This document shows positions 12,411 through 15,918 of a stretch of DNA of 64,000 nucleotides, in pieces (the first letter of the stretch is position 1; the number at the start of each line of letters is the position of its first letter). This stretch comes from Chitinophagales bacterium (GTDB taxonomy: Bacteria; Bacteroidota; Bacteroidia; Chitinophagales; Chitinophagaceae), in NCBI GenBank assembly GCA_021323755.1, contig JAJPKJ010000009.1, forward strand, positions 62,001 through 126,000, in the 5' to 3' direction. Below the pieces are notes generated by a model. That model was given only the letters and a program-made list of their open reading frames with translations, searched no databases and was not told where the DNA came from. A program made the translations under genes and the position numbers.

Positions 12411-13934
12411 TCAAAGATCGAACTTGATTCCCTGGGCTAAGGGCAAATTTGTAGAATAATTGATTGTATTTGTTTGTCTGCGCATATAGGCTTTCCATGC
12501 ATCGCTGCCACTTTCACGACCCCCACCTGTTTCTTTTTCACCTCCAAAAGCGCCGCCAATTTCAGCCCCGGAAGTGCCGATGTTTACGTTTGCAATTCCA
12601 CAATCGCTGCCAGCCTGTGAAAGAAATTTTTCAGCCTCACGCAAGTTGAGTGTCATAATAGATGAAGACAAACCTTGAGGGACATTATTTTGAATGGTAA
12701 TTGCTTCATCGATGGTTTTGTATTTCAACAAATATAGGATCGGGGCAAAAGTCTCGTGCTGAACAATTTTGAATTCAGGTTTGGCTTCAGCAATACAGGG
12801 CCTGACATAGCAACCACTTTCATAACCATCGCCCTGCAAGACGCCGCCTTCAACAATAAAATTTCCACCTTCTTTTTTGCAAGCCTCAATCGAATTAAGA
12901 TAAAGCTGCACCGCATCTCTGTCAATTAAAGGACCAACATGGTTCTTTTCTTGCAACGGATCCCCGATTCTTAATTGTTTATAGGCTGCAATTAATTTTT
13001 CTTTTATTTTTTCATAAATACTTTCATGAATGATCAATCTGCGTGTTGTTGTGCAGCGTTGTCCGGCTGTTCCCACAGCGCCGAATATCGAACCACGAAC
13101 GGCAATGTCCAGATCTGCATGTTCAGAAATAATTATCGCATTATTACCGCCGAGCTCCAATAAGGATCTTCCCAAACGCGCACCAACAGCAGTTCCAACA
13201 GCTTTGCCCATTCGCGTTGATCCGGTTGCGGAGACCAATGGAATCCGCACATCCTTGGCCATCCATTCGCCAACTTCTCTGTTGCCGACTATTAATCCGC
13301 TGACCCCTTCCGGAACATTATTGTTTTCAAAAACTTCTGCAACAATTTGCTGGCAGGCAACTCCGCATAAGGGCGTTTTTTCAGACGGCTTCCAAACACA
13401 TACATCACCGCAGACCCAGGCCAACATGCTATTCCAGCTCCATACTGCAACGGGGAAATTAAAAGCGGAAATAATTCCAACAATTCCCAATGGGTGCCAC
13501 TGTTCGTACATGCGGTGTGCAGAGCGCTCACTGTGCATGGTCAATCCATGCAGTTGTCTGGATAAACCGACTGCCAGATCGCAGATATCTATCATTTCCT
13601 GAACTTCGCCATAACCTTCCTGCAAACTTTTTCCCATTTCATAAGAGACCAGTCTGCCAAGAGACTCCTTGTTTTTTCTTAATGCTTCTCCTATTTGACG
13701 AACGACTTCACCACGTTTTGGCGCCGGCCACAATCGCCATTCAACAAAAGCTGACTGTGCTTTTGCAATTACGGTCTCATAATCCTGCTTTGAAGTGGTG
13801 CCAACGGACCCGATGAGTTTCCCATCAACAGGAGAGAAGGACCCGATCACTGATGAGGAAGAATCCATCCAACTTTTTCCTGTTGAAGTTCCAGGATTGG
13901 TTTCGCTTATTTTTAGTTGTTTGAGTATATCCAT
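12411..13934 (-). CDS. amaB: ALDH7-type aldehyde dehydrogenase (alpha-aminoadipic semialdehyde dehydrogenase-like)
   Basis: 507 residues from the ATG at 13934 (MDILKQLKISETNPGTSTG). Catalytic Glu260 lies in LLELGGNNAIII and Cys294 in GTAGQRCTTTRRLIIHE; NAD contacts lie in ISAFNFPVAVWSWN and SATGSTRMG. The GNNAI and GQRCTTTRR patterns are those of the ALDH7/antiquitin group, which oxidises L-2-aminoadipate 6-semialdehyde in lysine breakdown. That substrate is inferred from family membership. An upstream in-frame extension to 13970 merely reads through a hairpin and a T9 tract, so it is not counted as protein. The leader is unusual (see the hairpin at 13935-13967). Confidence 0.88.
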   Translation of the reverse strand: MDILKQLKISETNPGTSTGKSWMDSSSSVIGSFSPVDGKLIGSVGTTSKQDYETVIAKAQSAFVEWRLWPAPKRGEVVRQIGEALRKNKESLGRLVSYEMGKSLQEGYGEVQEMIDICDLAVGLSRQLHGLTMHSERSAHRMYEQWHPLGIVGIISAFNFPVAVWSWNSMLAWVCGDVCVWKPSEKTPLCGVACQQIVAEVFENNNVPEGVSGLIVGNREVGEWMAKDVRIPLVSATGSTRMGKAVGTAVGARLGRSLLELGGNNAIIISEHADLDIAVRGSIFGAVGTAGQRCTTTRRLIIHESIYEKIKEKLIAAYKQLRIGDPLQEKNHVGPLIDRDAVQLYLNSIEACKKEGGNFIVEGGVLQGDGYESGCYVRPCIAEAKPEFKIVQHETFAPILYLLKYKTIDEAITIQNNVPQGLSSSIMTLNLREAEKFLSQAGSDCGIANVNIGTSGAEIGGAFGGEKETGGGRESGSDAWKAYMRRQTNTINYSTNLPLAQGIKFDL

Positions 13935-13967
13935 AAAAAAAAACTTGCGGTTTAAAAAAACCGCAAG
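13935..13967 (-). promoter_or_regulatory. Terminator-like hairpin directly upstream of the ALDH7 start codon
   Basis: On the minus strand a perfect 10-bp stem (CTTGCGGTTT/AAACCGCAAG, 13944-13953 with 13958-13967) with a 4-base loop is followed by nine T residues (13935-13943) and then immediately by ATG. This is the layout of an intrinsic terminator or attenuator in the 5' leader. Next to it, GTTAGGAAATTAA (13971-13983) and TTAATTCCTAAC (13994-14005) form a second inverted repeat with a one-base bulge that could compete or stack with the first. Function is inferred from structure only. Confidence 0.6.
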
Positions 13968-14161
13968 CAAGTTAGGAAATTAACTGCTAACCTTAATTCC
14001 TAACCTAAACTTAAAATCTACTATGAAAAAAGCGTACTAATTGTACGAAAAAAACACCTTATCTGTTGCCCGTTGAACAAATCCAGGTTAAAGATATTTA
14101 CATGTCATTTATACACGAATTAATTTAGGCGAATAAGAAAAAAATGTCGGAGTATATCAGA

Positions 14162-14860
14162 TTAGTTCATTTTCTTGTCCATTTCCGCAAAGAAACTTTC
14201 ACTATAGCTGATGCCGATCGGGATTTCCTTATCAGCGATTTTGATCTTGCTCTTGCTTACATTAACGATCTTACTTATCGGAACAATATAGGAGCGATGT
14301 ACCCGAATGAATTCTTTCGGAGGTAGTTTTTGGGTGATGGTTTTAAGGGTCATTAAGGTGAGCACCGACTTTTGCTGTAAATAGATTTTTATATAATCAT
14401 CCAGACCTTCGATATACAAAATATCTTTTAAATTTATTTTCACCATTTGATAATCTGATTTTACAAAAATGTAACCTTCCGCCAATTCCTGGCTGTTTGC
14501 ATAATCAAGATATTCTTTGGCTTTATAAACTGATTTCAAAAAGCGATCATACTCGATAGGCTTTAATAAATAATCTATCGCATCAACGGTAAATCCTTCA
14601 ACTGCATATTCACTGAACGCAGTTGTAAAAATAACGGCTGTTGTTTTCTTATTAATGAGTTTGGAGAATTCAATTCCATTGATGTCGGGCATTTGAATAT
14701 CGAGAAAAACCAAATCAACCGGACTTGTATCCAATAATTTTTTTGCTTCGAATGCATCGGTGAAAGTGCCCTTCAATTCAAGAAAATATATTTTCGCAAT
14801 ATATTTTTTTATTAGTTCCAATGCGAGGGGTTCGTCGTCGATGGCTATACAGGTGATCAT
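14162..14860 (-). CDS. LytTR-family response regulator
   Basis: 232 residues. A CheY-like receiver (1-120) has the acidic pair Asp8/Asp9, phospho-acceptor Asp54 in VFLDIQMPDING, a Thr in FTTAF and Lys in LLKPIEYDRF. A LytTR DNA-binding domain (about 130-230) contains DILYIEGLDDYIKIYL and EFIRVHRSYIVPISKI. Its start overlaps the stop of the upstream histidine kinase by four bases (ATGA), so the two are translationally coupled. Targets are unknown. It is the first of two such pairs in the window. Confidence 0.93.
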   Translation of the reverse strand: MITCIAIDDEPLALELIKKYIAKIYFLELKGTFTDAFEAKKLLDTSPVDLVFLDIQMPDINGIEFSKLINKKTTAVIFTTAFSEYAVEGFTVDAIDYLLKPIEYDRFLKSVYKAKEYLDYANSQELAEGYIFVKSDYQMVKINLKDILYIEGLDDYIKIYLQQKSVLTLMTLKTITQKLPPKEFIRVHRSYIVPISKIVNVSKSKIKIADKEIPIGISYSESFFAEMDKKMN

Positions 14861-15918
14861 TGTAAATGGATATTTAATTTAACGGTAAAATCGTTCTCGG
14901 CGTTTTTGATATCAAGTGCATAATGGTCGTGATACAATAATTCAAGCCTTCTGCGACTATTATTAATGCCGATGCCTGTGTTGTCTGCGGGCTTCAATAT
15001 AGAACTGTTATGCTTATTATTTTTTACAAAGAAGAAGAACTCATTTGTTGATACATCTAATTTGATAATGATGGGAGAGACTTCTCTCGTGCTTATTCCG
15101 TATTTAAAGGCATTTTCAACAAAAGGCAAAAGTAATAAAGGAGAAATTTTTTTACCAAAGGGATCGCCGATTACGGAAAAGTCAACCGTCGATTTATCCG
15201 TTAATCTTAATTTTTGCAGTTCAATATAGTGAGTGATGAACTGGATTTCCTTTTCAACCGGAACGGCGTCGTTTTTTGCTTCTGTCAAAACATAACGCAT
15301 AATACTTGAAAGTTTCATTACCGCTTCTGCTGTATGTCTGGAACCGTCCGCTGCCAGCGAATAAATATTATTGAGCGTGTTGAATAAAAAATGCGGATTG
15401 ATCTGTGATTTAAGAAAAGATAATTCTGTATTTAATTTTTCATTCTCAATTTCTTTATTTCTTCTTTCTGTTTCAAACCATTGTGTGATCACCCGTAATC
15501 CTGTACTAATGGCAAAGACCATGGAAAAAATAGCGATGGATCCTGGTGAAAGGAGGGGTGGAAGAAGATTTCGCGGGCGAAGGGAGCGTCTCAAAATTGG
15601 CGGAAGTATTTGCAATGTGTCGCTGAGATAATGATACAATCGCGGGAATAAACCGAAGAAAAGAAAGAAAGCGATACTAATCAAAATATACGGAAGGACT
15701 TTTTTTCGGGTGAGTAATTTTGGAATAAGAAAATAAAAATTGAAGTAATAAAACCCGATATAAAAGCAATTGATCAAAACGAAATAAAAAGAAAAACTTT
15801 GTTCGGGAATAAATGCACCATCTTTTGGTCTTGGTAAAAAGGCGAATGGCAGCAGTAAAAAACATCCCCATGCTGCGATGTGAATAATGATCTGTAAAAT
15901 GAATTTATTTGATTTCAT
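14857..15918 (-). CDS. LytS-type sensor histidine kinase (His_kinase family)
   Basis: 353 residues. Four membrane segments lie in the first ~145 residues (IIIHIAAWGCFLLLPFAF; FYFVLINCFYIGFYYFNFYF; PYILISIAFFLFFGL; IAIFSMVFAISTGLRV). The cytoplasmic kinase has phospho-acceptor His176 in LKSQINPHFLFNTLNN and a HATPase domain with PLLLLPFVENAFKYG and GIGINNSRRRLELLY. It has no extracellular sensor domain. It precedes the LytTR regulator with a 4-base overlap, so they are cognate partners. Confidence 0.92.
   Translation of the reverse strand: MKSNKFILQIIIHIAAWGCFLLLPFAFLPRPKDGAFIPEQSFSFYFVLINCFYIGFYYFNFYFLIPKLLTRKKVLPYILISIAFFLFFGLFPRLYHYLSDTLQILPPILRRSLRPRNLLPPLLSPGSIAIFSMVFAISTGLRVITQWFETERRNKEIENEKLNTELSFLKSQINPHFLFNTLNNIYSLAADGSRHTAEAVMKLSSIMRYVLTEAKNDAVPVEKEIQFITHYIELQKLRLTDKSTVDFSVIGDPFGKKISPLLLLPFVENAFKYGISTREVSPIIIKLDVSTNEFFFFVKNNKHNSSILKPADNTGIGINNSRRRLELLYHDHYALDIKNAENDFTVKLNIHLQ

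Follow-up and report, generated by a model that had tools for sequence, protein, structure and literature searches.

The window analysed here, a stretch of 64,000 nucleotides from a Chitinophagales bacterium, raises the question of why a terminator-like hairpin should lie in direct contact with a metabolic gene's start codon. The gene, ALDH7 (12411-13934, minus strand), scores 836 bits with the NF050084 model of L-piperidine-6-carboxylate dehydrogenase, whose cut-off is 730. The hairpin preceding it can be read on the minus strand as the 5' arm CTTGCGGTTT (13967-13958), the loop TTTT (13957-13954), the 3' arm AAACCGCAAG (13953-13944) and a run of nine T, TTTTTTTTT (13943-13935), which ends at the ATG (13934-13932); the perfect 10-bp stem, four-base loop and nine T residues reported in a preliminary description of this locus are thus confirmed. 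An eleventh, closing G-U pair extends the hairpin, hereafter stem 2, to positions 13943-13968 (minus strand), and a consensus terminator scan lists it as a terminator of 11 pairs, an assignment to which folding and covariation also contribute. The second inverted repeat that had been noticed just upstream is real as well, and corresponds to a variable hairpin, hereafter stem 1 (13969-14006, minus strand; defined by folding and alignment), in which 14006-13993 pairs with 13983-13969 with one bulge. In the minimum free energy (MFE) structure of the 126-nt leader the two stems stand side by side, at -32.9 kcal/mol versus a mean of -18.5 for shuffled sequences (z -4.8; none of 200 shuffles equalled it). 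We also looked through 464 kb of the same genome, where 360 ORFs begin with ATG and encode 150 aa or more; ORFs less than 80 nt from the end of a stretch were left out, so that the scan covered at least 346. In two of them, ALDH7 and a prmA-like gene, a stem of 8 bp or longer with a T-rich tail lies no more than 16 nt from the ATG. The latter (L177:6742-7560, plus strand), whose product appears by eye to be ribosomal protein L11 methyltransferase, has a terminator-like hairpin with a T-rich tail reaching its ATG.

The preliminary description took the hairpin for an attenuator of ALDH7, or else for the terminator of an upstream transcript combined with a start made after it. Our comparison with related genomes suggests that the hairpin most likely closes a conserved small RNA gene, rather than being a switch inside the ALDH7 message. 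More specifically, the hairpin and its T run are probably the terminator of a separate gene for a small RNA resembling FopS and GibS, and the promoter of ALDH7, here called P2, would be nested within this terminator.

To define the distribution of the hairpin we considered the GTDB genus that holds Puia dinghuensis, for which 33 genomes were available; 30 of them have an ALDH match at E <= 1e-100, and 29 loci retain upstream DNA (one ALDH7 gene without its 5' end, L031, and three genomes without an ALDH7 match, G006, G008 and G021, were left out of the locus counts). Conservation in the ALDH7 leaders of relatives, a check proposed in the preliminary description, is evident: a conserved element ending in the same kind of hairpin precedes ALDH7 in 20 of the 29 loci. 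The exact core pattern of this element occurs as one copy per genome, at the ALDH locus, in 20 of the 33 genomes. Across the family it is found in 10 of 394 genomes, all 10 being among the 11 drawn from this genus, and it is absent from the 383 genomes of other family genera (0/383). A covariance model of the element, R1, recovers the same 20 genomes of the genus and nothing else below E 0.1. The genes of a histidine kinase (14857-15918, minus strand, in the window) and a LytTR response regulator (lytTR, the immediate upstream neighbour, 14162-14860, minus strand, with matches to the Response_reg and LytTR domains) lie upstream in the same direction at all 20 element loci. The lytTR orthologue is found upstream of ALDH7 in 25 of the 29 loci; at the nine loci lacking the element it is present in five, a gene for a TonB-dependent receptor occupying its place in the other four. 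Mapped on the ALDH tree, the presence of the element requires at least two changes.

Stem 2 shows clear covariation in the 20 species carrying the element, since both sides have changed in four of the 10 pairs and 95.5% of the cells remain paired; all of 500 shuffles scored lower on each of five measures, and sliding the stem out of register reduced the paired cells to 27.5-37%. At five of the 20 loci (L008, L010, L011, L013 and L027) the T run is short or broken by other bases, and in another (L021) it lies 11 nt away from the ATG, so that contact with the start codon is not itself strictly kept.

Upstream of the two stems, the element begins with a predicted promoter of the ECF type, P1, which in the window reads GCAACA-N16-CGTA (14044-14069, minus strand) and was recognised from the pattern in relatives. 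The general form RCAACH-N15/16-CRTW is present at 20 of 20 element loci and at none of the nine others, although it was drawn up after seeing the alignment and in three of those nine the gap from lytTR to the ATG measures only 54-55 nt. The spacing is 16 in 19 loci and 15 in one, and it holds while the sequence of the spacer varies. A genome-wide ECF regulon sharing the exact P1 pattern was considered and rejected, because GCAACM-N16-CGTA is not enriched in the window's own genome (16 sites versus 18 for the reversed pattern). A further inverted repeat, CGTACaattaGTACG, followed by TTTTTT (14033-14047), looks like another terminator; it overlaps the predicted -10 box of P1 and, in the alignment, is not common to most relatives.

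If P1 functions as a promoter, the gene lying between lytTR and ALDH7 would be transcribed separately into a small RNA of about 103 nt (13935-14037, minus strand), as deduced from the positions of P1 and of the terminator, with a nominal 5' end placed 6 nt past CGTA. Such an RNA would carry, in order, a conserved block rich in U close to the 5' end, the variable stem 1 and the terminator. The block, 24 nt long (TTTTTTCATAGTAGATTTTAAGTT, 14008-14031, minus strand), was delineated by alignment, core pattern and Rfam models and resembles the 5' seed of GibS and FopS. It is near-invariant across the element loci, with two variants, CATAGTAGA and, in the intergenic alignment, CATAAGTAGG. Its distance from P1 takes two ranges, 13-18 nt in eight species and 41-46 nt in 12. 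Stem 1 varies in sequence among relatives and its shape is not uniform. When longer stretches of several relatives are folded, part of the block is paired, and hence it is not plainly single-stranded.

The second promoter-like box of the locus is that of P2. In the window it corresponds to TAACTTGC (13967-13974, minus strand), a -7 box of the TAnnTTGY type that overlaps the 10-bp stem by a single base, the last of the box and the first of the stem. The form TAAnTTGC precedes ALDH7 in 27 of the 29 loci of the genus, the remaining two having one-base variants: TAATATTGC in L010, 41 nt from the ATG by eye, and TAAGTTTGC in L021, 53 nt from it. At the nine loci without the element the box is TAACTTGC or TAAATTGC and starts 25-30 nt before the ATG (25-26 nt in eight of the nine); 18 of the 20 element loci retain TAAnTTGC, 37-47 nt before the ATG. 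Its TTGC part is invariant in all 20 element loci, is found also in the nine others, and is retained even in L010 and L011, where the rest of stem 2 has been replaced. Among loci of other genera, represented by the 28 best-scoring of the 102 family genomes with ALDH7, 17 have, 23-36 nt ahead of the aligned start, a TAnnTTTG or TAnnTTGY box; of the other 11, two have it elsewhere and nine have none within 170 nt. One locus of another genus (L079, genome G088) also has a histidine kinase-lytTR pair upstream of ALDH7, and shows a long palindrome between the promoter-like box TAGATTTGC and the ATG, by eye with no T-run terminator. In the window's own genome, TAnnTTGC occurs 10-30 nt before 13 of 346 starts and 6, 6, 3 and then 1-3 times in the following bins of 20 nt, and TAnnTTTG occurs at 39 of 346, dropping upstream to 3-6 per 20-nt bin. 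Because the box is kept at element-less loci, recurs at 17 of the 28 loci of other genera and is over-represented shortly upstream of starts of the same genome, the P2 box is, as far as sequence comparison can tell, the inherited promoter of ALDH, onto which the terminator was built.

The position of this box has a direct bearing on termination. Placing the box at -12 to -5 puts the predicted start of ALDH7 transcription at 13962, within the 5' arm, and gives a 28-nt leader. Since the box abuts or forms the 5' arm, P2 transcripts would start within the stem and could not form it; half of the stem lies upstream of their start, and they would thereby escape termination. In agreement, the 28-nt leader folds into GGUUU/AAACC alone, at -4.3 kcal/mol versus -16.0 for the full hairpin. 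ALDH7 would then be transcribed from its own ancestral, short-leader promoter, its P2 transcripts lacking the terminator, while transcripts arriving from upstream would end before the ATG. The earlier idea of a terminator for an upstream transcript is thus retained in large part, inasmuch as it fits the data, though the transcript in question looks like a dedicated, conserved small RNA; the accompanying idea that the ALDH7 start is made after the terminator departs from the prediction, which puts the start inside the stem.

The alternative of a transcription attenuator, in which the transcript from P1 or lytTR would be the leader of ALDH7 and a signal would open the terminator for RNA polymerase, appears unlikely. 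It accounts well for a terminator that touches the start codon, and for the position of the element, which precedes ALDH7 in every one of the 20 genomes carrying it. However, it would require the RNA to choose between structures, and folding gives little indication of such a choice. The two stems, which the preliminary description thought might be mutually exclusive, form together in the window. In all 20 species, pairing of the terminator 5' arm with upstream RNA gains at most 0 to -6.3 kcal/mol, as against -13.2 to -17.7 for the terminator hairpin alone, so that sequestration of the arm never competes in energy, and we found no convincing antiterminator by folding in these species. The larger gains (-1.7 to -6.3) belong to the eight species of the window's type, in seven of which the weak alternative partner lies about 29-48 nt upstream; this recurrence speaks somewhat for attenuation, and suggests that a weak competing pairing may exist in species of this type. 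In nine of the 12 species outside the window's type the partner is about 10-21 nt upstream. The mean pairing probability of the 5' arm in the nascent RNA (0.16-0.78; the L029 row was left out of this survey) is uninformative, because pairing within the arm counts too. Moreover, the predicted 103-nt RNA of the window contains no ATG for a leader peptide, nine of the 29 loci have ALDH7 with its box and no element, and a separate, conserved promoter box of ALDH7 stands at the hairpin itself. A promoter with a start between 13934 and 13967 had been named in advance as evidence against attenuation, and the sequence predicts one (TAACTTGC at 13974-13967, start at about 13962). With coexisting stems, a weak antiterminator pairing and a separate ALDH7 promoter box, we find the attenuator unsupported by these comparisons; a terminator at a start codon, it would seem, need not be one.

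A simpler proposal holds that the hairpin is the ordinary terminator of the histidine kinase-lytTR operon, lying beside the promoter of ALDH7 and involving no regulatory RNA. Intrinsic terminators are common, and the two regulatory genes precede the hairpin in the same direction at every one of the 20 element loci. We nevertheless regard this proposal as quite improbable, for it leaves the near-invariant 24-nt block, P1 and the similarity to FopS unexplained, and five loci with lytTR upstream have no such hairpin. The least convincing possibility is that the block serves as a DNA operator, for instance for the adjacent LytTR regulator, controlling transcription into ALDH7, which seems very doubtful: lytTR adjoins it at all 20 element loci and its TAAGTTAAG resembles what we take to be the LytTR consensus, but the block is missing from five loci that have lytTR, finds no second site within three mismatches in 15 of the 20 element genomes (9 + 6), aligns with an RNA family model, and has a covarying RNA stem downstream of it. 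A gene on the opposite strand, starting with ATGAAAAAA in the block, was also discarded, as its frame ranges from 5 to 91 codons across the 10 element loci seen and in most of these the proteins share nothing past the first residues.

Returning to the favoured reading of a separate small RNA gene, the U-rich block would act like the seed of GibS and FopS, presumably by pairing near the start codons of mRNAs. No trans target within three mismatches of the block was found in the 15 genomes (9 + 6) searched. When the seed was compared with up to 414 start regions of the window's own genome, the best duplex energy was matched by 58 of 100 shuffled seeds and the mean by 84 of 100. The pattern CTACT(N)ATGAAAAA occurs at 48 places in the 33 genomes, 18 of these places being the element itself, and the reversed control at 26; of the 48, 30 were inspected, and long frames open at few of those outside the element. 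With neither near-matches nor duplex energies better than those of shuffles, no candidate trans target of the block was retained.

Some individual sites can be recorded here as observations. The second-best duplex energy in the window's own genome belongs to L189:2881-3252 (minus strand; no Pfam family), which has AUCUACUAU just before its AUG and is a lead only. In Pedobacter agri PB92, an exact 22-nt complement of the block (L139:2158-2179) spans the likely ATG of what appears by eye to be a PfkB-like sugar kinase gene, the placement expected of a target site; the ORF as listed begins at a TTG seven codons before that ATG. The start region of a gene that looks by eye like susD, in another genome (L119, G023), is complementary to a FopS-like seed (GTAACCTTTTAAATACTACTACTCATGAAAAA).

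The genus contains two other families of FopS-like, small RNA-like intergenic sequences, each with a terminator. Family B (TTTTTCATAGGATAAGGTTTAATGGTTAA... or TTTTTCATAGGATAAGGTTTAATGGTTAATGG..., with a GC-rich terminator) is highly conserved and scores up to 36 bits with RF04319, below the cut-off. It is represented in the window's own genome at G000:C66:147485-147563 (L153) and in relatives by L130-L136, L158, L162, L164, L165, L167, L170 and L171. Its site is mostly conserved, with an upstream neighbour common to 11 and a downstream neighbour common to 11 of 15 loci (one counted twice), and one genome (G001) has two copies. Family C (TTTTCATGTTGGTTGTTTTAAGGGTTAA... with its terminator) scores 33 bits with RF04319 in the window's own genome, where it lies at G000:C59:65472-65540 (L152) between genes resembling lon and bioB by eye; counting its relatives L163, L168 and L169, the upstream neighbour is common to four and the downstream neighbour to three of the four loci. 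Seeds of the FopS type are also present in 33 viral contigs from IMG/VR (L196-L228), in many of which an inverted repeat and a T run follow the seed by eye, and the FopS study mentions one phage (PMC11697453).

A bolder step can be taken, which we put forward as a tentative possibility: the terminator of an ECF-driven, FopS-like small RNA would be at the same time the promoter of ALDH7, and each round of small RNA transcription would pass over and pause on P2, hindering ALDH7 by promoter interference. Pausing on P2 would couple the output of a trans-acting RNA with the shut-off of ALDH7 in cis. If this were true, the arrangement would have been kept across much of the genus, selection holding terminator and promoter on top of each other and thereby allowing an RNA gene and the adjacent gene to be regulated against each other; the GibS/FopS seed family would then extend from Bacteroidia to Chitinophagaceae. 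Soil Chitinophagaceae would, in that case, harbour relatives of the seed-type RNAs known from gut Bacteroides, located at fixed positions of the chromosome and forming three separate families within a single genus. Among the open-access PMC papers listed for these subjects we found neither GibS/FopS-like RNAs of Chitinophagaceae nor an overlap of this kind between a small RNA terminator and a promoter.

How does the locus compare with known systems? The attenuators of amino-acid operons likewise place an intrinsic terminator ahead of a start codon, that of a gene of metabolism; unlike them, the present element shows no strong antiterminator and no leader-peptide ATG, and a promoter box belonging to ALDH7 stands at the terminator. 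For promoters, the closest precedent is in Flavobacterium psychrophilum, where the -7 box of sigma-A is TAnnTTTG and 'SM5' promoters have TAnnTTGY at -12 to -5 (PMC9723704). The box TAACTTGC conforms to TAnnTTGY, which is one base shorter than TAnnTTTG, but SM5 promoters have mapped starts whereas the P2 start is a prediction, and the P2 box abuts or enters a terminator stem.

Similarity to the small RNAs of Bacteroides emerged from a comparison with 4227 Rfam families, in which all matches were sub-threshold. Three Bacteroides small RNAs are among them, all below their cut-offs: FopS (RF04319) with 25.8 bits against a gathering cut-off of 56, short of the threshold for membership, GibS (RF04182) with 22.0 bits against 115, and BTnc231 with 21.1 bits. 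The best E-value for the stretch was that of ncr952 of Bacillus; this name, L20_leader, PyrR and others, equally sub-threshold, were attributed to chance or shared shape. The FopS and GibS alignments both begin at the block, the FopS one with a 3-nt gap, GibS GUGUUUUUCAUAGUAuUAGAU..AAG being set against GCUUUUUUCAUAGUA, three gap positions and GAUUUUAAG. Searching with FopS in the window's own genome places the element third, after two loci of the same build, which belong to families B and C (in relatives, ranks refer to the matches listed), and, given the TTTTTCAT core, it shares second place among 212 sites when these are ordered by likeness to the FopS seed. No match in the 33 genomes of the genus exceeds the FopS cut-off, a scan of the loci of 13 relatives gave nothing at E <= 2, and eight of 14 control genomes also have a match at E <= 10, so that single FopS hits are weak. 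In the reciprocal direction, R1 was run over the 33 phage contigs with FopS seeds (272,928 bases; some contigs near-duplicates), where 12 of 13 matches at E <= 10 fell on FopS sites, weakly (E 0.34-7.2), with 21 of the 33 sites missed and the best match (E 0.22) not a FopS site. Over 15 loci (37,888 bases), all six R1 matches at E <= 5 fell on copies of family B (best E 0.037), four of the 10 copies of this family, including that of the window's own genome, and all four of family C being missed. Similarity to FopS is thus present, and weak, in both directions of search.

Beyond scores, the likeness lies in the build. As described in PMC11697453, FopS RNAs of Bacteroides combine a single-stranded 5' seed with a terminator, and act close to the start codon to repress mRNAs of the susC type; a seed of the UUUUUCAUAGUA..AGAUUUAAG type near the 5' end is followed by an intrinsic terminator, as in our element. 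The Rho-independent hairpin at the 3' end of FopS has its equivalent here, with the reservation that the T run is imperfect in the five loci listed above. In the same way, the 5' end of GibS from B. thetaiotaomicron, GUGUUUUUCAUAGUA..GAU, aligns with the block. FopS is bound by the RRM-1 protein RbpB, and the genome of the window encodes four RRM_1 proteins. There are also differences: the seed core of the element is about 3 nt shorter, stem 1 is additional, and in some relatives pairing reaches into the block. FopS forms a multicopy paralogous family; the element is a single copy at a fixed site, with B and C as further FopS-like families in the genus. Its promoter is ECF-like, while a figure legend in PMC11697453 names sigma-ABfr and PM2 motifs for FopS, and its terminator is shared with the promoter of another gene. 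We therefore do not file the element as a member of either family; it may well work like a FopS or GibS RNA, by homology or by convergence on the pairing of start codons.
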